NCBI GenBank assembly: GCA_009602725.1
Contig: WELB01000049.1
Location: forward strand, 261,327 to 325,326
Length of the DNA stretch: 64,000 nucleotides
Reading direction: 5' to 3'
DNA from: Spirogloea muscicola
Taxonomy: Eukaryota > Streptophyta > Zygnematophyceae > Spirogloeales > Spirogloeaceae
This document shows, one piece after another, positions 22,346 to 64,000 of the stretch. The first letter of the stretch is position 1. Each line of letters starts with the position of its first letter. The notes under the pieces are model-generated. The model saw only the letters and a list, made by a program, of their open reading frames with translations, was not told where the DNA came from and did not search any database. The position numbers and the translations under genes are program-made.

Positions 22346-23091
22346 NNNNNNNNNNNNNNNNNNNNNNNNNNNNNNNNNNNNNNNNNNNNNNNNNNNNNNN
22401 NNNNNNNNNNNNNNNNNNNNNNNNNNNNNNNNNNNNNNNNNNNNNNNNNNNNNNNNNNNNNNNNNNNNNNNNNNNNNNNNNNNNNNNNNNNNNNNNNNNN
22501 NNNNNNNNNNNNNNNNNNNNNNNNNNNNNNNNNNNNNNNNNNNNNNNNNNNNNNNNNNNNNNNNNNNNNNNNNNNNNNNNNNNNNNNNNNNNNNNNNNNN
22601 NNNNNNNNNNNNNNNNNNNNNNNNNNNNNNNNNNNNNNNNNNNNNNNNNNNNNNNNNNNNNNNNNNNNNNNNNNNNNNNNNNNNNNNNNNNNNNNNNNNN
22701 NNNNNNNNNNNNNNNNNNNNNNNNNNNNNNNNNNNNNNNNNNNNNNNNNNNNNNNNNNNNNNNNNNNNNNNNNNNNNNNNNNNNNNNNNNNNNNNNNNNN
22801 NNNNNNNNNNNNNNNNNNNNNNNNNNNNNNNNNNNNNNNNNNNNNNNNNNNNNNNNNNNNNNNNNNNNNNNNNNNNNNNNNNNNNNNNNNNNNNNNNNNN
22901 NNNNNNNNNNNNNNNNNNNNNNNNNNNNNNNNNNNNNNNNNNNNNNNNNNNNNNNNNNNNNNNNNNNNNNNNNNNNNNNNNNNNNNNNNNNNNNNNNNNN
23001 NNNNNNNNNNNNNNNNNNNNNNNNNNNNNNNNNNNNNNNNNNNNNNNNNNNNNNNNNNNNNNNNNNNNNNNNNNNNNNNNNNNNNNNNNNN
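22346..23091. other. Assembly gap (746 N)
   Basis: Unknown sequence between the 5' ends of two divergent genes. The first exon of BMS1 and possibly that of the DAR GTPase gene, together with their promoters, should lie here. Open frames crossing it are meaningless. Confidence 0.99.
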
Positions 23092-25028: not shown

Positions 25029-25865
25029 CGCCCCGCCGGTAAAGCCTGCTGCTCTTGCATCAGTGCGCTGCTTGTCGAAGTCGAGCAAGCAGTATGCTTT
25101 ATGCGCCTGCTGGCGATGACGCGCACGCAGAGCCTCAGGGCTTTTACGTTTCTGGCCGCTGCGACGGGCGTGAGCGAGCGGGCACTTCGCCGCCCGCCTC
25201 CACCGCAGTACTGTCAGCAATGGCGACCTGTGGTTTTGTCTGCGCAACAGTCAGCAATGCACCCCAATGCGGCGCCCACTTTCGTGGGAAGCAGTCAGAT
25301 GGCCACGAGAGAAAGAAGCTTCCATTAGAGCGCGATGGCTGTGTTCGGCCAGCCCAGAAAGAAGAGTAGACAAAGCTCAAAGGGGCCGGCCAGAAGAGCG
25401 CTGAAGCGTACGGCGACTCAAGTAGCCACCGGGTGCTCAACATCCCCGGTTGAGTAGCCGCAGGTCAGCGAGACCAGTTCCCGAGTGCGGTCAGCGGGTG
25501 CACCCTGTCTATAGCCAGAGAAGAGCTCCTTCGACTGACGGCCGTGGCTGTGAGAGGCCAGCCCAAAGGCAGGGCTGTGAACAGCGAATGTACGAGGTCT
25601 GAGAGGGCCGGATGGCGTAAGAAGCAGGACACTGTCCTCCGAGGTGTCAGCGAGAGGCGCTCTATCATCTCTCGCGTCGCCAAGCGCACATCAGAGGCTG
25701 CAGCCAAAGCGAGCGAGCGGCTAGGGGGCCAAGGTGAGGCCAGCCTTCGATGTGCTGTGCAAAATACAGGTCAACTGCCAGCTGTCAACGGGCAGCGGTC
25801 AACGGCGATCAGGGTCAGACGGTCAGTTAGTGCTAATTATTGAGAGTTAGAGTCGTTTACAAATT
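25029..25865. repeat. Cluster of hairpin-bearing dispersed repeats
   Basis: No gene. At least two copies of the GGCTGTG...GGCCAGCCC hairpin unit (about 25330-25400 and 25535-25640). Each is followed by a variant of the GACAAnGnnCGAAGGGGCC tail, in minus orientation relative to the LINE copies at 43-45 kb. CTCAGTAG/CAGTAACC-like LINE ends are also present. Confidence 0.6.
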
Positions 25866-26131
25866 CAGGTTAAGGCCACGTCAAGGCTGGCCAGCTGCCT
25901 GGCGAGCACAGGCGTCGGGCATCGCCGGCGTCCGCGGCGGCGGCGGCGGCGGCATCGGCGGCGGCATTGTTGGCGGCGTTGGCGGCGGCGGCGGCGGACG
26001 TGGGCGATGCTGTTGCAGCCACCGCTGGGACTCACGCTCGCCTGCCACGCTGCCGCCGCTCTGGGCCTCGCCCGCGCCACCCCCCGCAGCGGCCCCCCTG
26101 CCATGGCCGCCGTGGCCGTCGACGGCGGCGN

Positions 26132-26171
<40 letters not shown>

Positions 26172-26224
26172 TGCATTGCCGCGCTGACGTCGTCGGCCGC
26201 CGTGGCGCTGGCGGCGTCCGCCAG

Positions 26225-27924
26225 ACGCGCTGCTGGCGGAGGTGGCCCCCCGCGTCCGCGGCGTTGCCACGACCAACTTCGTCGGCGTCTCGGCGTCGCT
26301 CATGGACGCCCTGCCGGCTCTGGAGATCATCTCCTGCTTCGGCGTCGGCGTCGACTCCATCGGTGAGAGCCGCCGCTCGGCGGCCGGCCACCGCCCACAT
26401 GGCCGCTGACTGCTGCCGCTGCCGCCCAATACCGCTGCCGCTGCCGCCGTCAACAACAACAAAAACAACAACAAGAACAACGTCGACAGCAACAACCCAT
26501 TGTTGTGGTTGTTGTCGTCGTCGACGTTGTTGTTATTGTTGTTGTCCTGCGCGTCAATGACTGCCATTGCCACTGCCGCTGCAGCGGCTGTCAGCTGTCC
26601 CAGGACCGCCTGCTGAGGAAGACAGACTCTTCCAGTAGATGGCGACGGCTGTGACTGGCCAGCCTAGGAAAAGGACATAACAAAGTTGGGAAGGCCAGAG
26701 AAGCGCTTGATCACACAGCGACACGAGCGGCCACTGAGGTGCATTAGCCGCTGCTGTGGGCGGCGCAGACGTGGGCAGGGCTCGGGAGCGCGGCGTAATC
26801 GTGACCAACACACCGGACGTGCTGACCGACGACGTCGCCGACCTCGCCGTCGGCCTGCTGCTGGCGACCGTGCGCAAGATCTGTGCCGGCGACCGCTATG
26901 TGCGCGACGGCCTCTGGCTCAGCCGCGGCCCGATGGCGCTCCAGCGCAAGGCATGAACACGGCCTCAACACCACTTCTTAATCCTTGTCCGTTGACCTCT
27001 GAATATTAAGCTTATCACCCTTAACCCTCAATTATTGACCATGTCACAGGTGAGCGGTAAACGCGTCGGCATCATTGGCCTGGGCCGCATCGGCCTTGCC
27101 ATCGCACGCCGCCTCGAGGGCTTCGACTGCACAATCGCTTACCAGAGCCGCCGGCGCCGCCCGGACTGCACATACGAGTACCACGGCGAGCCAGCGGAGC
27201 TCGCGGCCAGTGTCGACTTCCTCGTGGTCGCCTGCCCGCTCAACCCCTCCACACGGCACCTTGTCAACCGTGCTGTGCTTGACGCGCTCGGGCCCGACGG
27301 CGTGCTGGTCAACATTGCTCGGTACTCCCATAAGAGCTTGTCTTTGATGACGCTCTTGTAAACATGCCCAAAAAAGTTGGTCGTATTCTGGTAGCCAAGG
27401 CAGCCGATGCACTTGTTCGCAAGCTCAGAAGAACCCTGCATTGTCTGGGTGCTGGAAGCACAAAACTTGTGTGTAGTATTGCTTTCACGAGCAAAGTGAC
27501 TTAAGCTCTTCATCTGATATGTGTACCCACCCGAAAAGAAGGCTAAGTATGCCACTACATACAGGTCCTTCTGACCATGGAAAATGTGAAATCCTGATTG
27601 CTAAAACCATTTTCTAAATCTTCAATCTCCAGATTGTGACATCGTTACTCCAAGTCGCCCTGGATGTTGTGCAGAGGCCCTGTGGTGGACGAGAAGGAGC
27701 TCGTGGCAGCGCTGCAGGAGGGGCGGCTCGGCGGTGCGGGCCTGGACGTCTTCGAGGAGGAGCCGCAGGTCCCCAAGGCGCTGCTGGAGATGGACAATGT
27801 TGTGCTACAGCCACACGTAGCGAGCGCGACGTGGGAGACGCGCGGCGCTATGGGCGACCTCACCATTGCCAACCTCCAGGAGCACTTTGCTGGCAAACCT
27901 GTCATCACGCCATACCACGAGTGA
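26225..27924 (+). CDS. D-2-hydroxyacid dehydrogenase, hydroxypyruvate/hydroxyphenylpyruvate reductase type (5' end unresolved)
   Basis: Exons in phase: 26225-26362, 26769-26950, 27050-27321 and 27675-27924 (stop). Blocks: [38 protein letters not shown], the Rossmann motif [20 protein letters not shown], then the catalytic Arg (VLVNIAR|GP), Glu ([11 protein letters not shown]) and His ([13 protein letters not shown]). The enzyme should reduce glyoxylate/hydroxypyruvate or hydroxyphenylpyruvate with NAD(P)H. The family members are too alike to pick the substrate, and no peroxisomal SKL-type end is seen (C-terminus YHE). The N-terminal coding exon lies in the CCG-rich tract around 25900-26220, which contains an N at 26131; the ATG at 26103 is a candidate but is out of frame as assembled. 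The intron after 26950 has a GC donor. Confidence 0.85.
26451..26548. repeat. CAA/TTG inverted repeat in an intron
   Basis: An AAC/CAA-rich arm ending in GTCGAC (26451-26487) is mirrored by GTCGACGTTGTTGTTATTG and following TTG units (26518-26545). A second small CAACAAC/GTTGTTG pair lies inside. It could fold into a hairpin with a stem of about 24 bp within the intron of the dehydrogenase gene. Confidence 0.75.
26636..26720 (-). repeat. Hairpin-bearing repeat copy inside the dehydrogenase intron
   Basis: GGCTGTGACTGGCCAGCC followed by an AAGGACATAACAAAG tail matches, with divergence, the dispersed 3'-tail repeat seen after LINE frames elsewhere in the window. Confidence 0.5.
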
Positions 27925-39235: not shown

Positions 39236-39414
39236 AGATTGCGAGTGCAGGACAACGGCAGGAGCAGCTAGGCGAGGGCTAGCAGGGGGCCAGACGAGGG
39301 ACGGCAAGGGAGCGGCATGGCGGCCGCTGCGGCGGCGGCGGCAGTACGGGGCGGAGGGCGTTCGGTGACGACCACAAGGCTTTGACGGTCGCCGGATAGA
39401 GAGAACGAGAGAAG

Positions 39415-39545
39415 CGGCTGCTGATATTAAAGAGCGGCTGTGAAAGCCAGCCAGATGCATACAGGTGTTCATGACGGAGCCACAGGCTAGGCAGCCAGGG
39501 CGCTCTTAGTAACCCCGTGTCAGCAGTAGGAAGTCAGATGAGCTA
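39415..39545 (-). mobile_element. LINE 3' end fragment, minus orientation
   Basis: Reverse complement of the segment at 42375-42510. It contains the end of the LINE frame (SDFLLLTRGY-type) and a 3' UTR with the GGCTGGCTTTCACAGCC hairpin. It forms an about 130-bp inverted pair with the 42.4 kb copy, 2.8 kb away. Confidence 0.7.
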
Positions 39546-39699
39546 TGAACGACAGGGAAGGGAGGGTGTCCACCGAGAAACGACCGCTTGCCCCCGGCTC
39601 CTGCGGACCCCGTTCAGTCGGTCTCTGGTCGGACGTACTTGCCCCCTTCGACGAGCTCAGGTTCATGCTTGGCACCAGACGGCGCGGCAGCCTGGCTCT

Positions 39700-40440
39700 A
39701 CGCGCTCCCCCCTCTACGATGCACTCGGGATGCCGGATGAACTTTTCCGCACGGCAGTCCACCGCCTGCTGGGCCTCCCCCCGTCCTGTCTGCTAGGCAT
39801 GCTCCAGTGCAAGTGCGGAGAACGGTTGGCGGACCCGGCGGAGCTGGCGGCGCATGTCCTCCGCTGCGCTACGGGAGCTGAGCGCACCGCTGCACACGAC
39901 CTCCTCAGGGATGCCATATTTGGCATGTTTGTGGAAGCCGGCTACACGGTGGCGATGAAAAACACTTCCATCATGCCAATCCTCCAGAAGGCCTCGACCC
40001 GCTGGCCAGGCTTGCGCAACGCGCTGTGTCCCGCGGGCGAGGTGAGCTGGCTGACTTCAACGCCGCTGGCTCGTGGGCCCAGGTATATCGAATGCGATTG
40101 TCAGTCTCCTTCAGCGGTCCATGGCCATGCCTTGCATTTGCGTGCTGGCCGTGCTCTCGCTGCAGCCTCTGGCTTTCGTCAGGGGGATACTTTTCCGGCA
40201 GCTAGTCTGTCGGATTTGAGGCTCCTCACTCGTAGCTACTGAGTGGTCCATCCTCCACCCGTTCTGACATAGCATCTTCAGGCCCCTCCGTCACTGTGGC
40301 TTTAGGCCCCACTCCGTCATTTTGAGGCTCCTCACTCGTAACTGCTGAGTGGTCCATCCTCCCCCGTTCTGACATAGCATCTTCAGGCCCCTTCGTAGCT
40401 GCTCAGAGCTTTTTAGGCCCCTCCGTCATTTTGCCCCTTC
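39700..40440 (+). mobile_element. LINE 3' region with CCHC finger and tail
   Basis: Encodes CKCGERLADPAELAAHVLRC and RTAAHDLLRDAIFG, then after an internal deletion the tail LHLRAGRALAAASGFRQGD...LRLLTRSY and a stop. The 3' UTR begins GTGGTCCATCC and repeats imperfectly. The copy is non-autonomous: no reverse transcriptase and most of the nuclease domain absent. Confidence 0.75.
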
Positions 40441-40920
40441 AAACCTTTGTCAATTCTTTTTTGGGCTGGCTTTTCACAGCCCTTACCCCCATTGGGAGTG
40501 CCACTTCTTTCTGCTAAGCGAGAGAATCTCCTACCAGCCACGATTGACACTTGCGGCTGCATGGGTCCTCGTTTCCATACGCTACTGGAGAATATTGCAA
40601 GTCTGGGATATGCTCGACGTGAGGATCTGCTTCCAGCTCGGATGGGCATGCCGGCAGCCTACTTGTCATTCTTGCGTCGTCGAGTGTCAGCTTGTCTGCA
40701 GCGAGCTCAGGCTCATGCGCTGCATCAGAAAGCTGGTCGAGCCTTAGCTGGTAGCTCAAGAGCTTGTCGAGTGCCGTCCGGTATTCGGGCATCACTTAGC
40801 GACCTCCATGTGCTGACTCGTGGTTACTGAGTGGGTCAGCTTAACAGCAGGCGATGTACATTTGTCAATGTGCTTGCCTTCGTACTTGGCCACACAGGCC
40901 CTTCATCTCTAAATACACAC
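40440..40920 (+). mobile_element. Divergent LINE tail plus 3' hairpin repeats
   Basis: A hairpin repeat (about 40455-40520) is followed by a diverged C-terminal segment (CLQRAQAHALHQKAGRALAG...LSDLHVLTRGY, stop at about 40830). Next comes the ATGTGCTTGCC...TACTTGGCCA segment also seen at 12271 and at the window's right edge. Confidence 0.6.
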
Positions 40921-41395
40921 GCTTCCCTGCTAAGCGAGAGAAGTGGTTCTCCCAATGGGCCCAAGCGAAAAGCGAAAAGCCAGCCCGAAAAAAACTGACT
41001 CAGGGTCGGAGGGGCCACAATGACGGAGGGGCCTGATGATGCTATGGCAGAACGGGTGGAGGATGGACCACTCAGTAGCTACGAGTGAGGAGCCTGCTAA
41101 GCAGCCTAAGGTCAGAGAAACTTGGCTCCTGGAAGCGGGTTCCCTGGCCAAAGCCACAGGCAGTAGGGAGGGCTCTTTCTTCCGGCATGCAGGTGCAGTG
41201 CGCGGGCCATAGACCTCTGCAGCGAGGCCAAGCGCATGCGGTACACCTAAGAGAAAGCGCGGCCAGATTGACTGGTGGCTGTGAGAGGTCAGCCCAAAGG
41301 AATGGACAAGGTCTGAAGGAGCCGGAGTGCTGCTAAGACAGCAGCAAGGGGACTCTCAGTAACCTCTAGTCAGTCGAATTATGTCGGAATGGCTA
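40920..41395 (-). mobile_element. LINE 3' UTR and tail, minus orientation
   Basis: Contains, reversed, the hairpin repeat, the GTGGTCCATCC 3' UTR and a tail frame ending in LLTRGY-like codons. At least two subfamily ends are joined head to tail. Confidence 0.6.
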
Positions 41396-42297
41396 GCAGG
41401 CGGATAGACGTCGCCCTGACGGAAGCTGGAGGCTGCAGCCAAAGCGCGGCCTCCGCGCAAGTGAACCGCGAAGGCGAGGGACCGCTGCAAAGAAATGGCC
41501 AAGCGCATCCAGAAGACTTGAGCGAGGGACCCGGCGACATTGAAGCCAGGCTGCTCGCTCTGCCTGCCCGTGGCGGCGGGCCACTGCACGCCGTGCAAGG
41601 TGGTAAGGAGGTCAAGCCATTTTGTCCCAAAGGCTCCGTGTACATTGACGGCGAGTGGGACAAACTCGTCGCCCACTGGGTGATCCGAGTATTTCCACTC
41701 CTTAAGAACGCATGCGGTACACCTGCGCTAGCGACCCGGCTGCATAAAAGTCTACCGGCTCCCCATGGAAGCGGCGGACGATGGCGTTACGTGAGAGCTG
41801 GTTGAGCAGCTCGAGCCACCGAGCGCCCAACGACCCGTGCGTATCAGTGGCGAGCAGGAAGAAGTCGTCTTCCCGCGGGTGATCTGCGACTTTGAGCCCC
41901 TTGGTCCAAGCGGCGCAGGCTACTGCATACCCAGCCTTGGAGGCACACTGGGCGGGGTGTGAGCGGTCGTAGGGGTCAGTGGTTACCACGTCAAGGATAA
42001 GACGTGGCCACAAGGTCGACGCGACGGGCGTGGAGACCGTCCGCCCGTTGCTGGAGCGGCATGACTGTTCTCGGCGGCCACCGAGAAGCCGCCCTCCACG
42101 AGGATGCCATGCATCGTATCCCGGAGGAGGTCGTTTGCCACTGTCCGCTCTCCGCTGTGGGATCAGCGCAGAACATGGGCGGCCAGCTCCCCAGGCTCGG
42201 CCCCTCGCTCGCCACATTCGCATTGAAGCACACCCTGGAGAGATGGCGGCGGCAGACCCAGGAGCTGATGGGCTGGTCTCTCACAGCCATTTGCACC
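41356..42297 (-). mobile_element. LINE C-terminal segments, minus orientation
   Basis: At 41676-41356: DEFVPLAVNVHGAFGTKWLD, then AGSLAQVFWMRLAISLQRSL and the LTRGY end. At 42297-41702: a second copy with the finger region, LILDVVTTDPYDRS (nuclease core), HPREDDFFLLATDTHGSLG and AGSLAQVYRMR. Both are 5' truncated, and frames are interrupted. Confidence 0.72.
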
Positions 42298-42510
42298 GCC
42301 GCGCCGGTCGCGCCCTTGCAGCATCCTCTGGCTTGCGCAGCGGGGTTGCTCTTCCTCCCCTTTTATTTTTCTCAGCTCATCTGACTTCCTACTGCTGACC
42401 CGGGGATACTAAGAGCGCCCTGTCTACCTAGCCTGTGGCTCCGTCAAGAACACCTGTATGCATCCGGCTGGCTTTCACAGCCGCTCTTTCAATATCAGCA
42501 GCCGCATCGC
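42270..42510 (+). mobile_element. LINE 3' end, plus orientation
   Basis: A short tail frame (HRRAGRALAASSGLR) runs to TCTGACTTCCTACTGCTGAC...TAC-TAA, then a 3' UTR with a hairpin. It is inserted between two minus-strand copies and mirrored at 39415-39545. Confidence 0.65.
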
Positions 42511-42544
42511 CCTTATCTGACTTCCTACTGCTGACCCGGGGGTA

Positions 42545-43020
42545 CTAAGAAAAGCAAGCGCGGCCGGATTGACTGGTGGCTGGGAGAGGCCAGCCCAAAG
42601 GAATGGACAAGGTCTGAAGGAGCCGGAGAGCTAAGGACTGAGACAGCAGCAAGCGGACTCTCAGCACCCTCTGGTCAGTAGATGCAAATCTGAATAGTTA
42701 GCAGGCGGAAAGACGTCGCCCTGACGGAAGCCGGAGGCCGCCGCCAAAGCGCGGCCTGCGCGCAAGTGGACCGCGAAGGCAAGGGACCGCTGCAAAGAGA
42801 TGGCCGAGCGCATCCGGAAGACTTGGGCGAGGGACCCGGCAACATTGAAGCCAGGCTGCTCGCCCTGCTGCCCGTGGCGGCGGGCCGCTGCTCGCCGCGC
42901 AAGGTGGTGAAGCAGGTCAAGCCATTTTGCGCCAAAGGCGCCGTGTACGTAGACGGCGAGTGGGACAAACTCGTCTCCCACCGGGTGATCCGAGTACTTC
43001 CGTTCCTTGGCGCCTGCCGC
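42545..43020 (-). mobile_element. LINE C-terminal copy, minus orientation
   Basis: DEFVPLAVYVHGAFGAKWLD, AGSLAQVFRMRSAISLQRSL and SGFRQGDVFPPANYSDLHLL are encoded at 42981-42661. The 3' UTR with the hairpin (about 42570-42600) lies to the left. It is close to the 41.4 kb copy (same subfamily). Confidence 0.72.
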
Positions 43021-43500
43021 TTGGAGGAACTAAGAGCGCCCTGTCTGCCTAGCCTGTGGCTCCGTCAAGAACACCTGTATGCATCTGGCTGGCTTTCACA
43101 GCCGCTCTTTAATATCAGCAGCCGCATTTCTCTTTTGGGCTGGCTTTTCCAGCCCCTATCCTCAATGGTCCCAGCGGCTCGACCTGCTGGCCAGGCTTGC
43201 GCTGCGCGCTGTGTTCCATAGGCGCGGTGAGCCGGCGGACTTCAACACCGCTGGCTCGTAGGCTCAGGTATACCGTATGCGACTGTCCGTCTCTCTTCAG
43301 CGGTCCATGGCCCACGCCTTGCATCTGCGTGCTGGCCGTGCTCTCGCTGCGGCCTTGGGCTTTCGTCAGGGGGATACTTTTCCGGCAGCTAGTCTATCGG
43401 ATTTGAGGCTCCTCACTCGTAACTACTGAGTGGTCCATCCTCCCCCGTTCTGACATAGCCTCTTCAGGCCCCTTAGTAGCTGCTTAGCGCTTTTTAGGCC
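43020..43500 (+). mobile_element. LINE tails, plus orientation
   Basis: A third copy of the 3' UTR seen at 42.4 kb (43025-43125), followed by a hairpin and a tail segment (RLDLLARLALRAV, RLSVSLQRSMAHALHLRAGR in another frame) and the GTGGTCCATCC 3' UTR. Confidence 0.65.
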
Positions 43501-44450
43501 CCTCCATCAGGACGGCGGTCCACCGGCTCCTGGGCCTCCTCCATCCCTGCCTCGTGGGCGTCACTCAATGCGAGTGCGGTGCCCGTCACGCTGATCCTGC
43601 GGAGCTGGCCGCACATATGCTCCGTTGCGCACACGGGGGCGAGCGGACCGCTTCCCACGACCTCCTGCGAGATGGTATGCAGGGGGTGTATTCGGAGGCT
43701 GGCTTTAAGGTCGCGGTGGAGAACTCCTCCATCATGCCCATCCAGTTGGGCGCGGATGGCCAGCCCCGTACACGACGCGCCGACCTGGTCGCCATCCCGC
43801 CCGGCGGCGGTCCCCGCATCATCGCTGATGTGGTGACAACTGACTGCATCGACTCCGCCAATCCCACCAGATCGGCGTCGTTTGCAGGGCACGCGGTCAG
43901 CCAGGCGGCCAGGGGCAAGGAGCGAAAATATGCTGATCACCCGGTTTGGGATGAATTTGCAGCCATGGCGATGGATGTGCACGGGGCTTTCGGCAGCCGC
44001 TGGCTGGATCTCCTTCAGCAGCTTGCCCGCCAGGCCATTGACCGGCGGCCGGGTCTGCCAGGGGCGATGGCTTCAACGCCGCCGGTACGCTCGCACAAGT
44101 CTTCCGCATGCGCCTGGCCGTATCGCTTCAACGCTCCCTTGCCCACGCCGTCCACACGCGAGCAGGCCGTGCTATGTCCGCCGCCTCTGGGTCTCGGCGG
44201 GGTGCCTCTTTCTTTTTTACTTTCTTTCCCTGCAGCGAGCCACTCAGACCTGATGTTGCTCACTCGTGGGTACTGAGCTTCCCTCTGCATCTCCCAATGG
44301 GGGCAAGGGCTGTGAGAAGCCAGCCCGGAAAGAATTGACAAGGTTCGAATCCCTCTGCATCCCTAGGCATTCCCTCTGCATCGTCTCTGTGTTCTGCAGT
44401 GTTTTGTAGTGTAGTCCGTTTTCCGGCTCCTCTTTCTTTGGCTTTGGACA
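43500..44450 (+). mobile_element. Longest LINE copy: CCHC finger plus restriction-like endonuclease
   Basis: Open frame 43554-44276 with VTQCECGARHADPAELAAHM and LRC (Cys/His finger), GERTASHDLLRDGMQG, then a nuclease core RRADLVA...RIIADVVTTD with the spacing of the PD-x12-14-D motif, GKERKYADHPVWDEF and MDVHGAFGSRWLDLLQQ. The frame shifts near 44070 before the usual tail. This arrangement is that of the C-terminus of LINEs with a restriction-like endonuclease (R2/CRE/NeSL/Utopia grade). No reverse transcriptase is present, so it is a 5'-truncated copy. Confidence 0.75.
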
Positions 44451-45110
44451 TTGTCCATTCTTTTTTGGGCTGGCTTTGCCAGCCCCTCTTCTCTATGGGC
44501 GCGCACTTCTTGCTTCCTCCATCATTTGGCCCCTTCAAACCTTTGTCAATTCCTTTTCGGGCTGGCTTTTCACAGCCCTTGCCCCCCATTGGGAGTGCCA
44601 CTTCTCTCTATCCTCAATGGGCAAGCCCTTCCTTCCGTTCTGCCATTGCCTCTTCGGCCAAACACGCCGACCACCCGGCTGCCGATGAGTTCGTCCCCCT
44701 GGCTGTGGACGTGCACGGGGCTCTTGGATCCCACTGGCTCGACCTGTTGGCCAAGCTTGCACGGCGCGCTGTGTCCCGCAGGCGCGGTGAGCTGGCTGAC
44801 TTCAACGCCGCTGGCTCGTGGGCTCAGGTATATCGTATGCGCTTGTCCGTCTCCCTCCAGCGGTCCATGGCCCACGCCTTGCATCTGCGTGCTGGCCGTG
44901 CTCACGCTGCGGCCTCCGGCTTTCGTCAGGTGGATAGTTTTCCGGCAGCTAGTCTGTCGGATGTGAGGCTCCTCACTCGTAACTACTGAGTGGTCCATCC
45001 TCTCCCGTTCTGCCATGGCCCCGCAGTCGCTGCTTAGCTCGTAGTTTGGCCCCTTCGAACCTTGTCAATTCTTTCCGGGCTGGCTTCTCACAGCACTTGC
45101 CCCCATTTAG
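44450..45110 (+). mobile_element. LINE C-terminal copy with full 3' UTR and hairpin
   Basis: Two hairpin repeats (about 44460-44480 and 44555-44582) precede a coding segment: ADEFVPLAVDVHGALGSHWL, AGSWAQVYRMRLSVSLQRSM, SGFRQVDSFPAASLSDVRLL and the stop at 44989. The 3' UTR then reads GTGGTCCATCC, a TTGGCCCCTTCGAACCTTGT block and a hairpin. This copy shows directly that the hairpin repeat is the LINE 3' UTR. Confidence 0.75.
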
Positions 45111-45760
45111 AGAAGGGCTCGCCCATTGAGGATAGGGGCTGGAAAAAGCCAGCCCAGAAAAGAATGAACAAAGGACGAGAAGGGGCCAGGGGAAGTACGA
45201 AGAACAACAAGCACTAAAAGGAAACGAAGGCTCTCCCAATGGGAAGTGGCTCTCCCCTTTGGGAGAGCCACTTCTTCTTCAGGCCCCGCAGTCGCTGCTT
45301 AGCTCGTAGTTTGGCCCCTTCGAACCTTGTCAATTTTTTATGGGCTGGCTTCTCACAGCCCTTGCCCCCATTGGGAGAGCCACTTCTTCTATTAGTCTGT
45401 TTCTGCGCCACCCGGCTCCTTCCTTCCTTTTTGGGCTCAGCCCCTCTTCTCTATGGGCGCGCACTTCTCTTTCAGACCGTGTCCATTCCTTCGGGCTGGC
45501 CTCTCCCAGCCACCAGTCAATTTGGACGCGCTTTTCACCCTCACAGCCCTCGCCTCCCTTTCCGCCTTCTAGTTACTCTAATCTGCACATATTGAGAGCC
45601 TCCTGCTGACGTCTTGGAGAATAGTCTCCTGCTTTGTACATTCATTCCCTTGAGCTGGCCTCCCACAGCCATTGCCGTGAATTGGAAGAGCTGTTCCCCC
45701 TCGCGACTTGACTTGAACCTACTCGCCTGGCCCAGCTCGTCAGACGAGACCAATCCTCCC
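45110..45760. repeat. Array of detached LINE 3' hairpin tails
   Basis: At least five hairpin units in both orientations (about 45130-45160, 45245-45275, 45335-45385, 45485-45515 and 45650-45680), with GAAGTGGCTCTCCCAATGGG and related flanks. No coding part. Confidence 0.65.
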
Positions 45761-45793
45761 CGCGCCGCGCCGCCGCCGCCGCCGCCGCCATGG

Positions 45794-48300
45794 CCGCGGC
45801 CGCGGCCGCGANGCCACCGCCGCCGCAGCCGCTGCCGGCCGAGCTCCCCCGCCGGCTGACCCAGGCGGCCCTACTCGCGGCGCGGCCCCCAGCGCGCAGG
45901 TCCTCGAGGAGCCGCTCTCGCTGCCCTGCGGCCACACGCTGTGTAGGTGCGCCATGTAATTATATCCAAGGATTCCATAATCATATCGTGGCCATTCATA
46001 ACGAGTTTGCTTGATCACCTGCACATGTTCTCACCTGATGGCGGCTGTGCGGCCGCGCCAGCGCCGCTGGCTCTCCGGCTCTGCCACGAGCTCCGCGCTG
46101 AAGCTCTTGTGAAGCAGCGGCCCGTTGACGGAAAGCCCACTCAGCCGTTGCCGTTTGCTGCAAATCTGCAGCCCATGTGCGGAGAGTGCGCTGCGGGCGC
46201 GCGCCGAGTGCCCCGTCTGCACCGCCGCCGTGTGGCACAACCAGCTGCGCAGGCACCCCACGCTGGCCGGCGTCGTCGAGGCCTACAGGTGCGTCCTCCT
46301 CTGCCTGATACAGCAATTCCCTTCCGCGATCTCGTCGTTTTATATCAGCAGCAGCATATTTATTCTTGATCTCGTCCGCAGTGCGTTTGCCACGCGCCTC
46401 AGCCACTTGACGCCGTCGGATGCAATGTGGGCCGCTCCGTCGTGGGCGCAGGCGCCTGCGGGAGGCCGCCTGCGCGGCCGGGAGGGAGGAATCCCTTCAG
46501 CATGCGAGAGACCCTGCCCAAGCACAGTGCACACCTCCAAGTGAGGGCAGCTCATTATCCCGCATTGATGTTGCACAAACCCCTGGCTGCATCCCAACTA
46601 CGTCATTTTACAACTATCGTAACAATGGTTGTCCTCCTGCTTGCATATTGATCAGTATGCAACCTATCATGTTCATGCGTACCAATTTGCAGCATGTGAG
46701 ACGGAAGCAGGGCTGCCGGCAGGTACAGCGCCCGGGCAAGCGGAGGGCAGCAATACCAAGCACGAAAGGCTTCAGATGGTTGGCGGCCCTACAACTGAGG
46801 CTCGTCAAGAGAGGGCCACGCCGGGGACGCTTGCTGTCAGTGAAGCTCCCGTTGACGAGGCACTGCATACAGGAGCTGCTGAAGCATTCCAATCTGAGGA
46901 GCAGTGTCACGGCAGGGACGGCAGTGCAACGACTCCAAACGTGGAGGCCGGCTGCTCGGACCACAATGACAAGCTTCATAATGCCAAAGGGATGGAGGTG
47001 CACAGAGGCAAGCTCGTCAGCAGGGAGGTCGAGCCAGCTGCCGAGTGTGAATTAGGCGCTCGCTTGGGGCTCTCACGTAGCGAGCCGGCTAAGCGGAGCA
47101 GGGGGAGATTGAAACGCTGCAGCATGGTAGCTCCGCCAGGGGCTTCGCGCTCCCTGCGCAGCAGGTGGCAGAGCCCTGCCACGGCTGCTTTGCCGGGGAG
47201 GGCTACCATACTCGGGACATTGTTGATGTCAGCAACTCCACAAGGAGGACCTCAGTCAAGCGAGCTCGTCAACAGCTCCCTCTCGGCAGGCATTGCGTTG
47301 AAGGGGCCTTTGAGGAGCGCCATGAGGGAAGCTGGTGGACTGAGGGGCCCTCCAGGAATATTGGTGCAGCAGGTGCATAGCAGCTACAACAAGAATCATC
47401 TTCCCCTTAAAAACTCTGATTCTTCTTGGGAGTCTGCGTGCAGCTTGGTGGATCCATGACTGACAGGGAAGGCCGTTGGCTCTTCACTTGTATGCATTTG
47501 TCACTATGAGCCCTGGGCTGCAGCATGAATGACTACCCTTTCAGAGCCTGCGCTCCAACTTCAAGAGATTGTAGTTTCAGGGCCTGGTCAACCTCTAAGA
47601 GATTGTAGGAGTACTGTGCAGCAGGATGGCGACGCTGTTCCTAGTAGTTGTGACAAGCAGTCTATTCCAGAGGATGACATCTCCGACTTCGCCATGAGCA
47701 CGCAGGTAGCTTGGCCTGTTCTCTTGTAGCACCATAATAATTGGAGGCTGCTGAGAGTAGGGAAGGCTTGGGCAAATGACTTCTACTGCTTCCAATCTGC
47801 TGGCAGTCCTTTTCTCATGTATCTGCTTGTGAATGCTTATATCTCAAGGTGTGCGAGCGAGGTATATGACCTTTGATAGCAGTCTGAGCAGAACGAAAGC
47901 TTGACTTTCTAGTCTCTGGCCTGAGTCCATGTTTGTTGCTTGACAAGGGGCTCGACTCATGTAGGTTGTGCATATTTATGGACAGGCGCAAGCGGATCTT
48001 GCTGTTGAGATTGCCAAGCAGGAGAGGGAGCTGGAACAGCTCTTGACAAAGCTTGCTGCCATTGAGGCTCAGAAGACAGCAAGTCAGGCGACGCGGAATG
48101 GTAATTGATTGTCCCATATCTTGCCGGAGAACCATGGGCTCCTTTCCAGATCGTTCGAAGCATGTTGCATCATATATTGGGGAAGGACCTCAGGTGATAC
48201 CAGCTCTGGTCTTGTGCCTCACATGAGCTCTAAGGGAGGCACTTCAGCAGCAGCAGGTGCCTTGGAGCTGCCACAATTGGTCCGCAGATCTATCTGTTGA
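45794..48300 (+). CDS. RING-finger protein with C-terminal coiled coil
   Basis: Probable exons: up to 45946, 46172-46288, 46382-46540, one long exon from about 46693 to about 47330, about 47535-47708, about 47986-48100 and about 48190-48300 (stop). Joining 45946 to 46172 in phase gives LPCGHTLCSPCAESALRARA and then ECPVCTAAVWHNQLRRHP, that is, the C3-H4-C5-C6...C7-C8 half of a RING, followed by LAGVVEAYR as in BRCA1/BARD1-type RINGs. The first CxxC pair is not found. An N at 45812 and a frame change between the Pro/Ala-rich start (MAAAAAA) and the RING suggest a sequence error. The middle is low-complexity. The C-terminal ADLAVEIAKQERELEQLLTK is a coiled coil, spliced in phase to the last exon. 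A ubiquitin-ligase role is inferred from the RING half only. Confidence 0.6.
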
Positions 48301-48530
48301 CTGGGTGCTCTAAGTGCCTCGATGGCAGGGGTGCTGGCAGGGCCTGCTGTTGTGGCGCCTCCATGACCCTGCTCTTTTGTCTTGTGGCTGGCATTGTAGG
48401 GATACTGCCCCTTGATAGAAAAACCTCTCCTTGCTTCTAGTCCTGCAGATTGAGCGCCACAGTAGGGCAAAATGCCTTGCTAGGTCGTCAATCTGGCTGG
48501 CAGGAGACTCGTTTCTCTATCCAGCGGCTA
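48301..48530. other. Spacer after the RING/coiled-coil gene
   Basis: Nothing supported. Likely 3' UTR and flank before the next repeat. Confidence 0.4.
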
Positions 48531-48533
48531 CTC

Positions 48534-48660
48534 ACTAAGAAGAAGTGGCTCTCCCAATGGGGGCAAGGGCTGTGAGAAGCCAGCCCGAAAAGAATTGACA
48601 AGGTTCGAAGGGGCCAAACTACGAGCTAAGCAGCGACTGCGGGGCCTGAGGGGACTAAGG
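48534..48660 (-). repeat. Detached LINE 3' tail (hairpin repeat)
   Basis: GAAGTGGCTCTCCCAATGGG, the GGCTGTGAGAAGCCAGCCC hairpin, a GACAAGGTTCGAAGGGGCC block and an AGCGACTGCGGGGCCTGA end. It is nearly identical to the copies at 49700-49810 and, inverted, at 45250-45300 and 50900-51080, so it is young. Confidence 0.75.
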
Positions 48661-49310
48661 GATATTGAGCACCCAGTGGCCACTTGAGTCGCTGTGTGCT
48701 ACAGCGCTTTTGTGGCCCATCCGAGCTTTTTTCTGGGCTGGCCAGTCACAATGACTGCTATCATATTGTGTAACATTGACCAGGCCCCAATTGGTACCAC
48801 ATCAAGATCCTCTTATCTCCGGATGACTACTCGTTCGGACTTAAGCGTATGCATCATAAGCGAGCAACGTGATACCTAGGTCGCTCAAGTTGGTTGGCAC
48901 GTTGAGGCACGCGATGGTGCTTCTAGTAGTTCTTAATGAGAAGTGTCAATCTTCCCGCCCAGACTGTAGTCCTTGGGATAGTGCAAAGGTGGGCAAGTAA
49001 GAGATGAGCCTATATCGCCTGCTGCTTATGGACCCGGCGTTTGCTGCTGCTACTGTTAAGGACGAGCAGATTATCGAGCCGAAGCGCGAACAAGGAAGTT
49101 TGGCGGGGATATGGGATGGGGCTGCAATGCTAAGGAAGCAACGAAGGTTTGAAGGTCCAAGCGGGTCAGAGGGTGGGTGTAGTCACCGCCCTTGCCCTCA
49201 TAGATCCTCCCTATCTCGCTAATCCACTGGCACCTTGACAATGGTTGGCCCCGTTGGATTTGGTTGGCATGTTACCTTTTTGGCCCCGTGCGGTGGAAAG
49301 ACGGGGCGTC
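48661..49310. other. Spacer with one degenerate hairpin repeat
   Basis: A diverged hairpin (CTGGGCTGGCCAGTCACA near 48735) and no supported gene. Confidence 0.4.
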
Positions 49311-50110
49311 CCGTGAAAGAACCCTTGAAGAAAGAGAGAAGGGCTCGCCCATTGAGAGAAGAGCGCGCCCATAGAGAAGAGGGGCTGGCCAAGCCAGCCC
49401 AAAAAGAATAAACAATGTCCATTGAGGATAGGGGCTGGAAAAAGCCAGCCCAGAAAAGAATGAACAGAGGACGAGAAGGGGCCAGGGGAAGTACGAAGAA
49501 CAACAAGCACAGAAAAGAAACGAAGCAGCTACGAAGCACTCAGTAACCCCTGCTAAGCAGCCTAAGGTCAGAGAGACTGGGTTCCTGGAAACGGGTCCCC
49601 TGGCCAGAGCCAGAGGCAGCAGCGAGGGCTCTGCCTGCACGCAGGTGCAGCGCGCGGGCCATAGACCTCTGCAGCGAGACAGAAGAAAGACGCCTCCAGG
49701 GGAAGAAGAAGTGGCTCTCCCAATGGGGGCAAGGGCTGTGAGAAGCCAGCCCGAAAAGAATTGACAAGGTTCGAAGGGGCCAAAGTACGAGCTAAGCAGC
49801 GACTGCGTGGCCATAGCAGAACGGGGGAGGATGGACCACTCAGTAGTTACGAGTGAGGAGCCTCACATCCGACAGACTAGCTGCCGGAAAACTATCCCCC
49901 AAAGAAAGACGCTTCCAGGGGAAGGCGGCGGTTTGCAGAGGCCAGCCCAGAGAAACGAATGAAAAGAGTTCGAAGGGGCCAGGGAAAGCCATACACACTC
50001 CTTTTCCGTCCTTAGCACTCCGACTCCTTCAGACCTTGTCAATTCTTTTGGGCTGGCCTCTCTCAGCCACCAGTTAATCTGGCCGCGCTTGCATTCATTT
50101 TCCGTGCTCT
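49310..50110. mobile_element. Nested LINE 3' tails
   Basis: Mostly minus orientation to about 49980: hairpins near 49385, 49430, 49735 and 49935, with the CTGCAGCGAGACAGAAG and GTTCCTGGAAACGGGTCC tail-frame pieces between them. Then a plus-orientation end (50000-50100, TTGGGCTGGCCTCTCTCAGCC) of the 12.1 kb subfamily. Confidence 0.6.
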
Positions 50111-50159
50111 CCTTCCCGCCATTGTGGCCTTGCCACATACCCCGTTACGTCGCCGGTGC

Positions 50160-50560
50160 TGCGGTATATAGACTTAGACTGCGCCGGTAGTGGTCGTGCG
50201 CATGCCTGGCAGTTTTTCGTAGTATGTCGTCACTTCAGATTACCGGTGGGAGGTTCGACTCTCACCCGCGTCGCTGGCGGGCCAGAGTATATGATCGTGG
50301 GCTTTGAATAAGGGCTATGAGATGACCAGACCTCCGCCGGGGGCAGCTCCCGCTCCCCCATCGCTCTGACGCCTCGCTTGCCGAGGCGCTCGATGCGAGC
50401 ATTGGTCGTACGAGCCCTTTTATTCTTCGATCGAATTTGTTCACTAGAATTTCTTCTTCAGCTGAACTTGGTCTTCGGGTAAACTTGTTCTTCCAATGAA
50501 CTTGTTCTTCCAATGAAATTGATCTTCCAATAAACTTGTTCTTCAAACTTATTGAATGTC
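50160..50560 (+). mobile_element. tRNA-like short interspersed element (SINE candidate)
   Basis: GGTAGTGGTCGTGCG (A-box-like, about 50181) and GGAGGTTCGACTCTC (B-box-like, about 50250) lie about 65 bp apart. The latter sits in an 8-bp stem, GGTGGGAG/CTCTCACC, around GTTCGA. A GC-rich body follows, then a 17-bp tandem tail (CTTGTTCTTCCAATGAA units, 50483-50554). Acceptor arms do not pair, so it is not a functional tRNA gene. A SINE is the best reading but rests on one copy. Confidence 0.4.
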
Positions 50561-51090
50561 GTGGGCTGGCCACTCATAGCAATCGCCCTCTACTGGAAGC
50601 GTCCTTCTCTTATACGCAGCCTCTGGCTTTCGTCAGGAAAATTGCTGGTCAAGTATTCGCAGCCTATCTTCTTGATGGAGGGTGGTGTGTCGCCATCATG
50701 CCTTTGCTGAGCGTATTGCTGGTCAAGTATTCGCTGCGGCCTCCGGCTTTCGTCAGGGGGATAGTTTTCCGGCAGCTAGTCTGTCCTTGCCCCCATTGGG
50801 AGAGCCACTTCTTCTTAGTCTGTCGGATATGAGGCTCCTCACTCGTAAGTACTGAGTGGTCCATCCTCCCCCGTTCTGCCATAGCCTCTGCCCCTTCGAA
50901 CCTTGTCAATTCTTTTCGGGCTGGCTTCTCACAGCCCTTGCCCCCATTGGGAGAGCCACTTCTTCTTCAGGCCCCGCAGTCGCTGCTTAGCTCGTAGTTT
51001 TGGCCCTTTCGAACCTTGTCAATTCTTTTCGGGCTGGCTTCTCACAGCCCTTGCCCCCATCGGGAGAGCCACTTCTTCTTTGCTGAGGGG
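50560..51090 (+). repeat. Nested LINE tails, plus orientation
   Basis: Pieces of the tail frame (CTCCGGCTTTCGTCAGGGGG near 50740) interrupted by hairpin-repeat fragments. Two almost identical complete tails lie in tandem (about 50885-50970 and 51000-51080), which implies recent duplication or insertion. Confidence 0.65.
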
Positions 51091-51510
51091 CTGCCTTGCT
51101 GCCCAGAAGGCCCCCACTCAACAGCCAGACTCATGAGAATGTAATAAAGAGGACTCTATTGAACATGAGCTTGCAATGAGAAAAGAATCTGCACGAATGC
51201 TAAATGGCACTTGGACAATCAACCTTTCGACAGCTTCGATGAGGATGATCACCCAAACATGACAAGGGCGGCACTCTTAGAGGAGGCCGAGTAATATCTT
51301 ACACAGTGAGAGAAGAAAGACGCTTCCAGTAAGGGCGATGGCTGTGAGAGGCCAGCCCAGAATAAAGAATGAACAGTGGCCATATGTCATTAGCATAGCC
51401 CCCAGTACTCATTGAGATATTGCCAGCTGATAACACATGGTCAGCATGACAGTGTTCCCTTTTTGGGATCAATTGATGTAAGCACATCGTTTACAAGTGG
51501 CACAGATGTC
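51091..51510. other. Downstream flank of MCM3 with one hairpin repeat
   Basis: One minus-orientation hairpin unit at about 51325-51375 (GGCTGTGAGAGGCCAGCCC). Otherwise no recognised feature. Confidence 0.45.
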
Positions 51511-56436
<4,926 letters not shown>

Positions 56437-60900: not shown

Positions 60901-62820
60901 ATGCACGTAAGCTCTGATACTGTAAGTGACTGATTCTAAAACAGAGTCTCTGTTTGAGTATGAACTACACCAATCTGCTCTTCAATATCCCAGTGCTTGA
61001 CTTGGTACACTCACCGTGAATGTGCCAATCTTTGTTGGTGCTCCTTCGGGGAGCTCGGAGGGTTCTGCATACAAGGCCTCAATGGTGAACTGCTCAGACC
61101 TAATGAAAGTCAGCAGCTTCGAACTAGGGATGCTGTTGCCGCGCGGGAAGACCACCTCCGTGGACACAGGCTCCTTGTTGCCCGCCTCAGCACTGGGCGA
61201 TTTCCAGGACAGCGCAATGGAAAATGGGAATACATCTTGCACCTGGAGTTGAGCGTACAATCAGGCCCTGTGATTCATGATGCTATCTTTGATTTGCTCG
61301 CAAACAACACTCGTCTTAAAAGACATTGTCAAGAGTGCATCTCAAGGGCCAATGATAAAACCCCTCCCCTCTCATCCCCTCAAACCTAAACCGACGCCCT
61401 ACTACAAACAGCCTGTGCAGTCAGATTGTTGTCATTTGATACAGCCTGCCTACATTTGGCTTGCATGAGAATCCATAGCAGACTGAGAGTGCGCATGCCT
61501 ATGCATGCCATGCACTAAACTCAACTTACGGGCATGACTATGAATTGGGGAGATTTGTGTGACAATCAGCTGGATGCAGCGAGTGCAATATGCATACAAA
61601 ACAAAAGGGGTTGCTTCTGACGTCCAAAGTGGTGTAGTAAGGGGGCACACCTCAAAGTCCCGGACTTTGAAGGTCGGGCTGAGCATAGCGCACTGCAGGG
61701 CGCAGCCGCGAGCGACAGCTTCGCTGGAGTTCATGGTGCGGCTGGGTTCGCGCTGGAAGATCTCAGCCAGGGCCTTCATGATTGCAGGAACGCGAGAGCC
61801 GGAGCCCACGACCTCAACAGCAAAGAGCTTGTCCGGGGTGATGCCCGCGTCATGCAGGGCCCGCAGGCAAGGCTCCCGCACGCGAGCCATGAGCGGCTGC
61901 GAGAGCTCCAGGAACACATCCCGCGTCATGTGGCCCTTGACGTCCTTCTCGTCCATGAGGCACTCGATGTTGAGCGGCGCCTCCGGGTTGGCCGACAGCA
62001 TCTTCTTCATCTTCTCGCATGCGGCCCGCAGCCGAAGGCTGGCGCGCGGGTTGCTGCGCACGTCCATCTGGTACTCGTCCCGGAAGCGGTCGGCAAAGTG
62101 GGTGAAGAGCACCTCGTCGAAGTTGCGGCCGCCCAGGTTGCGGTCGAACGCGTGCGCCAGGACCTTGAGCTGGCCCTTCTTGAACGACGCGACGCAGACC
62201 TGCATGACGGAGTGGCCGACGTCGACGAAGGCGACCTGGATGGGGTCCGCCTCGGGCAGATCGGTCTTGTAGATGCCGTAGGCCAGCGCGGCGGCGGTGG
62301 TGTCGTGCATGAGGCGCAGCGGGTGGAGGCCGGCGATCTCGGCGGCCTCCAGGTACGCGCGGCGCTGCGCGTCCGTCAGGTAGATGGGCACGCCGATGAC
62401 GCAGTCCACGACCTTGGTGCCCAGGTTGCGCTCCCCGATGGCCTTGAGCTGCGAGAGCACCATGCCCAGCAGCGCCGTCGGCGTGAACGTCCGGCGCTCG
62501 CCCATGTACTGCACCTGCACCAGCGCCTCGCCGCCGGGGCCCTCGACGACGGCGAAGGGCAGCTGTGCCAGGTCGCGCTGCACGTCGGCGTCGGCGAAGC
62601 GCATGCCCAGCAGGCGCTTGATCTGCGAGACGGTGTTGCGGGGGTTCATCATCGCCGCGCCGGCGGCGGAGACGCCCAGCAGCCGCTGACGCTCCCCGAA
62701 CGACACCATGTTCGGCGTCTCGCGCTTGCTCTCGTCGTTGAGCACCACGTCGATGCCGCGCTGCCGCGCCACCGCCACGATCCCGCTCTCGTTCCCCACA
62801 TCGATCCCCACCACGCTCAT
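57997..62820 (-). CDS. Hsp110-type chaperone (plant HSP70-14/15 class)
   Basis: Nine minus-strand exons in phase: 62820-61651, 61242-61015, 60896-60798, 60507-60304, 60075-59878, 59632-59486, 59043-58894, 58600-58470 and 58249-57997, for 859 residues, the family's usual length. Nucleotide-binding part: MSVVGIDVGNESGIVAVARQ, DESKRETPNMVSFG, VDCVIGVPIYLTDAQRRAYL, RLMHDTTAAALAYGIYKTDL, HAFDRNLGGRNFDEVLFTHF, EVVGSGSRVPAIMKAL. Then VQDVFPFSIALSW, a long acidic loop (LIEEEE...), ALQDRVMEETKDRKNAVEAY, QETEDWLYEDGEDEKKSVYI and the tail KPIMSRPKPVV...AMDTD. Hsp110 proteins act as nucleotide-exchange factors and holdases for cytosolic Hsp70. There is no signal peptide and no HDEL, so a cytosolic form. 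The intron after 59878 has a GC donor. A minor ORF segment at about 60560-60620 lies in an intron. Confidence 0.93.
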
Positions 62821-63640
62821 CCTGCCCCGCCCTCTCGCCTCCCCCCCGCCGCCGCCGCCGCCGCCGACTCTCGCGGCGCCGAGGTCGCCGCGAATCGCGC
62901 CGCGCGCGCCGCCGCGAGCGCGGGCGCTGGATCTGGCACTGGCGATCTCGCGGGGGAACGGGGGCTGGCTGCAAATCCGCAACCCCCTTTTCCCTCGCCC
63001 CCCCCTCAGAACCCCGGCACAGGGGGGGTCACTACAGGAATCTGCCAATGTGCGGACTTCCGACGCAGATTCACCACGCCTGAGGAGATAGTTTCTCGGC
63101 GTCACCAGTCTCCGGCTGCACAAGATCCGAGGATCCGCGGTATTGGCCTTTCCAAGAGGCCAACAATACCGTACATTTGGAGACTTATCAGACCCGCGGT
63201 CGCGGGCTGGCTTGCACGGGCTTCTGGAAGCTGCCGGACGCTGATACGACTTAACGGGACGGAACGGCGAAGCCGTGGGATTTACTAGTGCGACGGAATG
63301 GGGGCGAGGGGGGCACCTTGCATGGCCCGCCCCACCCTCGCCGTAGCGCTTGGCCCCAGGGTCGTGCATGCCCGAGCGAGCGGTCGCGGGTCCTCTACTC
63401 CCGTCTGCTCGACGTTGGCCCGACGTGGCGGCCCAGCGTGTCGGGACCCGGGCCGAGCACTGCGGCTGAGGCCGCCGTGCATGGCGGCCTGTGTGGCCTA
63501 CGCTGTTGGCTTCTCGTTGACCAGCCCGACGTCACGGCCCTGCCATTTCCAAGTCGCAGTACTTCCGCCCATCCTCTACGCTTCATTCACTAGCCACTTT
63601 GTCACGGCGCCGGGCCGTCCTCTGAGTCAAGAGCTCAATT
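62821..63640. other. 5' flank of the Hsp110 gene
   Basis: GC-rich, with a CCG run at 62847-62870 just upstream of the start codon. Plus-strand frames here are compositional and lack family signatures. One TTCTGGAA (63222-63229) resembles half of a heat-shock element but stands alone. Beyond 63300 the sequence is generic GC-rich flank. Confidence 0.45.
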
Positions 63641-64000
63641 GGGTTACTTGAGCCCATTCGCTGTAGTCTCTTGCATAGCTCTGTGGCCTTTGACAGCCCT
63701 CGCCCCTTTGGAAGAGCACTTGAGTTGGGCTTGCCTCTCACAGCCATCGCCTTCTTTTGAAAGACCTGTTCCACTTTCACAGCCGTCCATTGACACAAGC
63801 AACCAAATCTCCTTCAAGACTGTGAGACTTTTCAGACTCTTGAAGACTCGCCTCCTTGACCACCACCTCCCAAATAGTTGGGTTCATTTTTTCGTGGGCT
63901 GGCTTTACACAGCCCTCGCTCCATTTGAAAGAGCTGCTTCTCTTCGCTTCTCTCTTCTGTAGGTGATGTACGTCTTCAAATGTGCTTGCCCTTGTACTTG
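63641..64000 (+). repeat. Divergent LINE 3' hairpin tails at the window edge
   Basis: At least three eroded hairpin units: TTTGACAGCCCTCGCCCC, GGGCTTGCCTCTCACAGCC and GTGGGCTGGCTTTACACAGCC. They have GGAAGAGC/GAAAGAGCTG flanks. The final GTGCTTGCCCTTGTACTTG is the segment also seen at 11897, 12271 and 40866. Confidence 0.55.

Follow-up and report, generated by a model that had tools for sequence, protein, structure and literature searches.

The 64,000-nucleotide stretch of the Spirogloea muscicola genome analysed here (the window) contains many copies of a short hairpin, GGGCTG-N8-CAGCCC or GGCTGG-N6-CCAGCC, which stands behind the reading frames of long interspersed nuclear elements (LINEs) and also occurs detached from them. 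The hairpin is probably the terminal recognition element of a diverse group of LINEs whose protein looks R2-like and of the restriction-like endonuclease (RLE) type. It is a known kind of thing, a LINE with a 3′ tag and severe truncation, in which the stem is unusually rigid and there is a hint of loop targeting.

The hairpin reported in the initial annotation is confirmed, with 11 exact GGGCTG-N8-CAGCCC sites in the window against 0.02 expected and five GGCTGG-N6-CCAGCC sites against 0.01. In the genome as a whole, a eukaryotic assembly of 153.1 Mb in 471 contigs, the exact GGGCTG-N8-CAGCCC pattern is found 8541 times and the reversed pattern 13 times, and the strand-specific form GGCTGGYYTYTCNCAGCC occurs 5731 + 5746 times compared to 0 + 0 for its reversed control. 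A single genome thus holds 11,477 exact copies of one loop class of a LINE 3′ tag which is tied to several protein lineages, a natural data set on what a LINE protein requires in its own RNA. A tail profile built from 95 seeds, which were picked on the stem and an upstream T-rich block, identifies 34 tail units in the window at a threshold of E ≤ 0.01, 18 on the plus and 16 on the minus strand. Of these, 23 lie within 39400-51090 and the other 11 at 11.5-12.3, 25.3-25.6, 26.6, 51.3 and 63.7-63.9 kb, which agrees with the earlier claim that the hairpin also stands alone at these places and in both orientations. The divergent tail family F contributes three more hairpins outside the profile's 34, at 39436-39452 on the minus strand and at 42466-42482 and 43087-43103 on the plus strand.

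Position of the hairpin behind LINE frames

On the plus strand of the window, frames ending in LLTR[S/G/N/K]Y and a stop codon terminate at 40242, 44276, 44989 and 50855, and a hairpin in sense orientation follows 221, 191, 88 and 63 nt on. The first is a decayed C-terminal frame with a CKCG...H...C motif (39475-40242, ending LLTRSY) followed by a family A tail at 40425-40511 with its hairpin at 40463-40482. The second (43488-44276, ending LLTRGY) carries CECG...H...C together with RRADLVAI..IIADVVTTD and is followed by a family B tail at 44443-44511 (hairpin 44468-44484), with another tail unit inserted between the stop codon and the hairpin. The third (44660-44989, ending LLTRNY) precedes a family A tail at 45037-45113 whose hairpin has one stem substitution, and the fourth precedes two head-to-tail family A tails (50891-50967 and 50992-51080) with hairpins 113 nt apart, the first being the one 63 nt past the stop. 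A minus-strand frame ending LLSRGY has its stop at 49540 and its hairpin 89 nt beyond, at 49450-49433, in the second of two adjoining tail units (49359-49420 and 49418-49485).

The same arrangement is found elsewhere in the genome. A search with an 84-residue LINE C-terminal query had 3718 candidates at first look; 150 were scored and 30 loci fetched, one being the window copy. Most of these 30 loci were read in frame. In the longer ones a reverse transcriptase (YADD) is followed by CxCG-H-C, RRxDLVA..IIADVVTTD and finally LLTR[N/T]Y with a stop codon, beyond which about 95 nt precede the hairpin, and CTTGCCCCCATTGGGAGNGCC and ACTTCTT come after it before the sequences diverge. A script search of the fetched sequence located 29 LINE C-terminal ends, one of them with a downstream gap. 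An exact stem lies within 300 nt in 23 of the 28 gap-free ends and a stem with at most one mismatch in 27, although several of these copies are near-identical and the 28 are not independent cases. Counted from the list, the exact stem starts 50-120 nt after the stop in 20 of the 28. The hairpin is thus situated past the stop codon and about 30 nt from the LINE 3′ end in several lineages, and the type of 3′ untranslated region (UTR) differs with the type of C-terminus (families A, B, D, E, F and others). A family F tail, for instance, is preceded by a LINE frame ending LLTRGY in one locus (L049). The claim that the hairpin is linked to LINE 3′ ends is therefore borne out in several lineages.

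Several observations weigh against a general rule of this kind. The frame ending at 43429 has no hairpin within the next 300 nt, its 3′ UTR being interrupted there. The control region 300-600 nt upstream is not clean and contains an exact stem in 6 of 25 cases and one with a single mismatch in 13 of 25, and therefore the fixed position of the hairpin is the stronger argument. A conserved stem-loop near the 3′ end, as in stringent-type LINEs, is present except in one lineage: the sister lineage ending SDLFLLTRGY (L052) has its own tail without the GGCTG hairpin and with GCGC-N3-GCGC instead. This tail, ATGCGC-N3-GCGCGCCTTC, is a GC-rich palindrome with a variable 3-nt loop, and occurs nine times in 8 of 73 loci (L006, L048, L050, L052, L059, L060, L061 and L064), once directly behind a LINE frame (L052).

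The protein is best seen in a gap-free copy (L071) with a frame of 1517 codons, in which RVT_1 is matched at E 2.3e-10 and two finger-like motifs are visible by eye, while there is no other convincing Pfam match and no apurinic/apyrimidinic endonuclease (APE) family at E ≤ 10. The reverse transcriptase domain thus lies in one long frame without an APE, like in RLE-type LINEs of the R2 group. NCBIfam gives one weak reverse transcriptase match (E 0.035). In the C-terminal part CxCG-H-C and D-x14-D motifs are seen by eye, and the latter resembles a restriction-like endonuclease. Sequence searches of Pfam and PDB returned no match to a C-terminal zinc finger or RLE fold, and searches against solved structures, with a profile and with a single protein, gave low-complexity matches that neither support nor deny the endonuclease motif. 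It is from these motifs that we infer an R2-like architecture and, likewise, the putative endonuclease type. Five partial proteins of another lineage have 62-67% identity with the gap-free copy, and despite this divergence both end in LLxRxY and a stop codon followed by the hairpin. One scan of viral contigs with the LINE C-terminal protein of the window confirmed no relatives outside the genome. Two further regions fetched for the protein contain long runs of N, and such runs at 22346-23091 of the window and in two loci (L069 and L070) inflate the listed lengths of open reading frames.

Detached tail units and their ends

By their appearance the detached units are LINE 3′ ends with extreme 5′ truncation, one of the two origins suggested in the initial annotation, and this reading stands. 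A selection on tail sequence only (families A, B, D and E) gave 125 detached tails, of which 95 have a measurable 5′ boundary, and these boundaries are scattered from 26 nt upstream of the tail up to the 1500-nt limit of the test, the long end of this range being inflated by loci that were fetched for the LINE C-terminus. No dominant 5′ boundary or shared head is apparent among the 95 ends. The 3′ ends are uniform by comparison: 50 family A units end in CACTT, then CTTC in 36 and CTTT in most others, then a short variable pyrimidine run, and none of these copy ends carries poly(A). Direct repeats of 8 nt or longer lie on either side of 15 of 59 units, where 2.45 would be expected from mispaired flanks; many of the repeats start with pyrimidines, which is favoured by a search that begins in the pyrimidine tail. 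A common 3′ end, a ragged 5′ end and target-site duplications in part of the copies are the properties of truncated LINEs. Two results speak less clearly for truncation. No repeat of at least 8 nt flanks the other 44 of the 59 units, and word counts exaggerate the loss of upstream sequence. For one subfamily, counted on both strands with at most one mismatch, these are 1988 for the hairpin, 531 at −29, 423 at −96 and 113 at −933 (reversed controls 0), but the hairpin word is common to several subfamilies and the drop from 1988 to 531 therefore overstates truncation.

Truncation may be very severe. A family A unit of 59 nt on the minus strand (44291-44349) sits in the 3′ UTR of the family B LINE between two copies of the 11-nt direct repeat TCCCTCTGCAT (44280-44290 and 44350-44360). 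It ends at GGGAG without the usual last part of the tail, and therefore copying seems to have started internally. A 30-nt family A tail end that lacks the hairpin (50786-50815, plus strand; 50777-50824 with its flanks) has inserted into a LINE frame and is flanked by the 9-nt direct repeat TAGTCTGTC, and its joined flanks equal the sequence that is uninterrupted in at least 20 other loci. Together with the 9-nt duplication the insertion amounts to 39 nt, a multiple of three, and therefore the frame is still in phase up to LLTRKY. Another locus (L008) holds a unit of 49 nt with a 10-nt repeat. Integration remains possible with very little cDNA, as these insertions of 30-60 nt and the repeats at their flanks show. 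Among 94 tails with at most three tail differences the hairpin is kept in 80, while nine have the 3′ arm alone and five no 3′ arm. Elsewhere in the genome (G000:C45:376244-376657) four copies of one LINE tail word lie exactly 130 bp apart in a short tandem tail array.

The other origin suggested at the outset, short interspersed nuclear elements (SINEs) that borrow the LINE tail, is not borne out in the sequence searched. LINE-tailed SINEs have been published for Chlamydomonas, one of which ends in (CTTT)n according to excerpts of PMC3747384, and the short variable CTT/CTTT end is similar here. In contrast to what SINEs would predict, the 5′ ends lack a shared boundary, no tRNA gene was found in the window, no Rfam match in the 79.1 kb that make up the window and five loci, and, in the roughly 290 kb read of the 153 Mb, no SINE that joins the LINE tail to an unrelated head. 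That some of the detached units are SINEs is thus very unlikely. Palindromic DNA transposons (miniature inverted-repeat transposable elements) or chance inverted repeats are barely conceivable as a source. The core is nearly palindromic and found on both strands, which speaks for them, yet the units lack symmetry: their 3′ end is fixed, their 5′ end ragged and their flanking repeats variable in length. They also run into LINE frames, and almost none arise in shuffled sequences or reversed patterns.

There is suggestive evidence that some older units have received new copies within their hairpin loops. The 3′ flank could be read in 122 units, and 11 of these run into the 3′ half of a second hairpin, as would result from insertion into a loop, where the controls (2.8% for random positions in the same sequences and 3.6% for flanks starting with pyrimidines) would predict three to four; one of these 11 (L069) appears to be spurious. 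Insertions immediately upstream of a hairpin were seen in 5 of 122 units and do not exceed the pyrimidine control of 5.6%. In four loci (L044, L054, L057 and L059) the other part of the interrupted hairpin, its 5′ arm, can be recognised by eye beyond the inserted unit. In L042, L046 and L047 a family A 3′ end directly abuts the latter half of a family E hairpin, at junctions that differ, as fits loop insertion. An alternative in which truncation stops at the loop because reverse transcription halts there was set aside, as the half-hairpin units are at least partly explained by insertion into loops. It may be suggested with much reservation that the loop (CTTYTC), which resembles the LINE's own 3′ repeat (CTTCTT), doubles as a landing site and that new copies enter the loops of older tails. 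If true, the tag would both select the RNA and mark dead copies as harmless targets, resulting in nested tails without a fixed site.

Sequence and structure of the stem

The observation that subfamilies differ in loop and flanks but keep the stem holds. In the 221 hits of the profile, conservation is 95-99% in the arms and 44-92% at the loop positions, that of the arms being partly built in as the profile seeds were chosen on the stem. The covariation check that had been proposed argues neither for nor against structure. Among 180 distinct rows the five core pairs make up 771 cells, of which 722 are unchanged, 15 changed on one side and 34 broken, with none compensated. One position further out, 98 of 144 rows have G-C and most of the others G-A. 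RNAalifold, applied to 16 hand-picked tails (two of them typed mixes), recovered the five core pairs again and no compensation in any of them, and when column pairs elsewhere in the tail were ranked by mutual information, no series of adjacent pairs was conspicuous by eye. At one pair followed throughout the genome there are 112 single mutants, counted on one chosen side of the pair, and five double mutants compared to 11477 unchanged copies. A structure is not refuted by changes that lack compensation, because the majority of copies are dead and free to decay, and since the stem hardly varies the test is uninformative and recognition of the sequence fits as well as recognition of a structure.

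The lack of compensation in the five core pairs weighs against the preferred reading in so far as structure is not told apart from sequence, and so do most of the folding energies. Of six tails that were folded, those of families B and D beat their shuffles (z −4.79 and −2.95), while two A tails, one E tail and one F tail do not (z −0.07, −0.08, −0.93 and +1.26), the F sequence being a typed mix. An outer helix hinted at by the B and D folds was rejected, as matched upstream and downstream segments pair no better than mismatched ones among 84 representatives (z 0.14, p 0.54). It is possible, though rather improbable, that the arms are conserved as a sequence, be it an RNA or a DNA motif, and that their pairing is incidental. 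Both the absence of compensated core pairs and the rarity of double mutants would be expected of such a motif, and blocks outside the stem (TTGT..ATT and GG.AG.GC) are conserved nearly as strongly as the stem itself. A motif of this kind would not by itself account for two exactly complementary arms that are kept around a variable loop in lineages with differing flanks, nor for pairing that reaches at least 6 bp in families B, D and E.

A further explanation, which we consider unlikely, is that the hairpin serves as a signal for 3′-end formation or stability of the LINE transcript, as the histone stem-loop does, rather than as a tag for the reverse transcriptase. An invariant stem near the end of the transcript and copy ends that lack poly(A) are in line with such a signal, but the evidence does not separate it from a tag, as copies that start at the 3′ terminus are expected under both.

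Under the preferred explanation, a terminal recognition element, the LINE protein would hold its own RNA around the invariant GGCUG/CAGCC stem and place the CUUCUU of the RNA 3′ end on a nicked target that is, like this end, rich in pyrimidines. Reverse transcription would then start at the target and often halt early, and the early halts would leave short tails scattered in both orientations, sometimes within older tails. The proposal that the hairpin is a structural tag which is read by the reverse transcriptase is thus upheld in part: the position at the 3′ end and the kept stem are consistent with it and covariation lends it no support, while that the reverse transcriptase itself reads the stem is something we infer.

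Related elements and further units in the window

Stringent-type LINEs with a stem-loop in the 3′ UTR include UnaL2, ZfL2, SART1 and plant L1 (excerpts of PMC5135761 and PMC3747384). Like these, the elements described here have a stem-loop near the 3′ end of the RNA, and they share with them short repeats at the 3′ terminus and the retention of the tail in truncated copies. Unlike them, the protein has no APE match. The plant L1 hairpin is reported to combine variable, compensated stems with a conserved UCU loop (PMC3747384), whereas here the stem is invariant and the loop variable. The protein is also reminiscent of RLE-type LINEs (R2, R4, NeSL/Utopia, HERO and CRE; excerpts of PMC4640811 and PMC10499050), with which it has in common a long frame, finger-like motifs towards the N-terminus and a reverse transcriptase in the middle, together with candidate C-terminal motifs that are zinc-finger-like and PD-(D/E)xK-like; R2Bm is described as reading a small core of its own 3′ UTR. 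In contrast to RLE-type LINEs no fixed genomic target is seen here, and at most there are pyrimidine-rich landing sites.

Among algae, the elements recall the Chlamydomonas SINEX and RandI (Dualen) pairs, where LINE tails are common to short elements and SINEX-2_CR is the one ending in (CTTT)n, but RandI/Dualen encodes both an APE and an RLE (PMC3747384), and here no APE was matched and no SINE head found. Zepp and ZeppL show frequent 5′ truncation, as is the case here, and nesting within older copies, which the suggested loop insertions recall, but Zepp belongs to the L1 clade and is clustered at centromeres according to excerpts of PMC8226300, unlike the tails described here which are spread over contigs and look RLE-like.

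The remaining tail units of the window stand alone. On the minus strand there is a unit with a damaged hairpin at 40938-41021, followed by two of family E at 41249-41330 (hairpin 41277-41294) and 42546-42631 (hairpin 42578-42595), one unit at 45111-45189 (hairpin 45136-45155), and two of family A at 48536-48626 (hairpin 48567-48586) and 49703-49792 (hairpin 49733-49752). The plus strand carries a very short family D-like unit at 43126-43168, family A units at 44522-44607 (hairpin 44559-44578) and 45302-45391 (hairpin 45342-45361), family E units at 45469-45535 (hairpin 45494-45511) and 50015-50090 (hairpin 50051-50068), and a divergent unit (AGCTG..CAGCC) at 45627-45697. The profile adds four units within 11500-12333 that start at 11500 (plus), 11807 (minus), 12153 (plus) and 12286 (minus), three divergent minus-strand units within 25319-26695 (25319, 25523 and 26621), a divergent minus-strand unit at 51314-51382, and three divergent plus-strand units within 63684-63944 (63684, 63725 and 63882).

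Two minus-strand regions, 61450-63531 and 53646-56024, hold what we take by eye to be host exons, HSP70/HSP110-like and MCM-like, respectively. The genome also contains light-harvesting genes (68 matches); their closest PDB entries are named LHCI-2 and chlorophyll a-b binding proteins, which belong to the green lineage, in keeping with a green alga or relative. A separate search with RVT_1, in which 150 of 985 candidates were scored, led to 30 loci (L009-L038) with many near-identical hits in long open frames, which, where read in the right frame, look by eye like long terminal repeat retrotransposons and are apparently recent.

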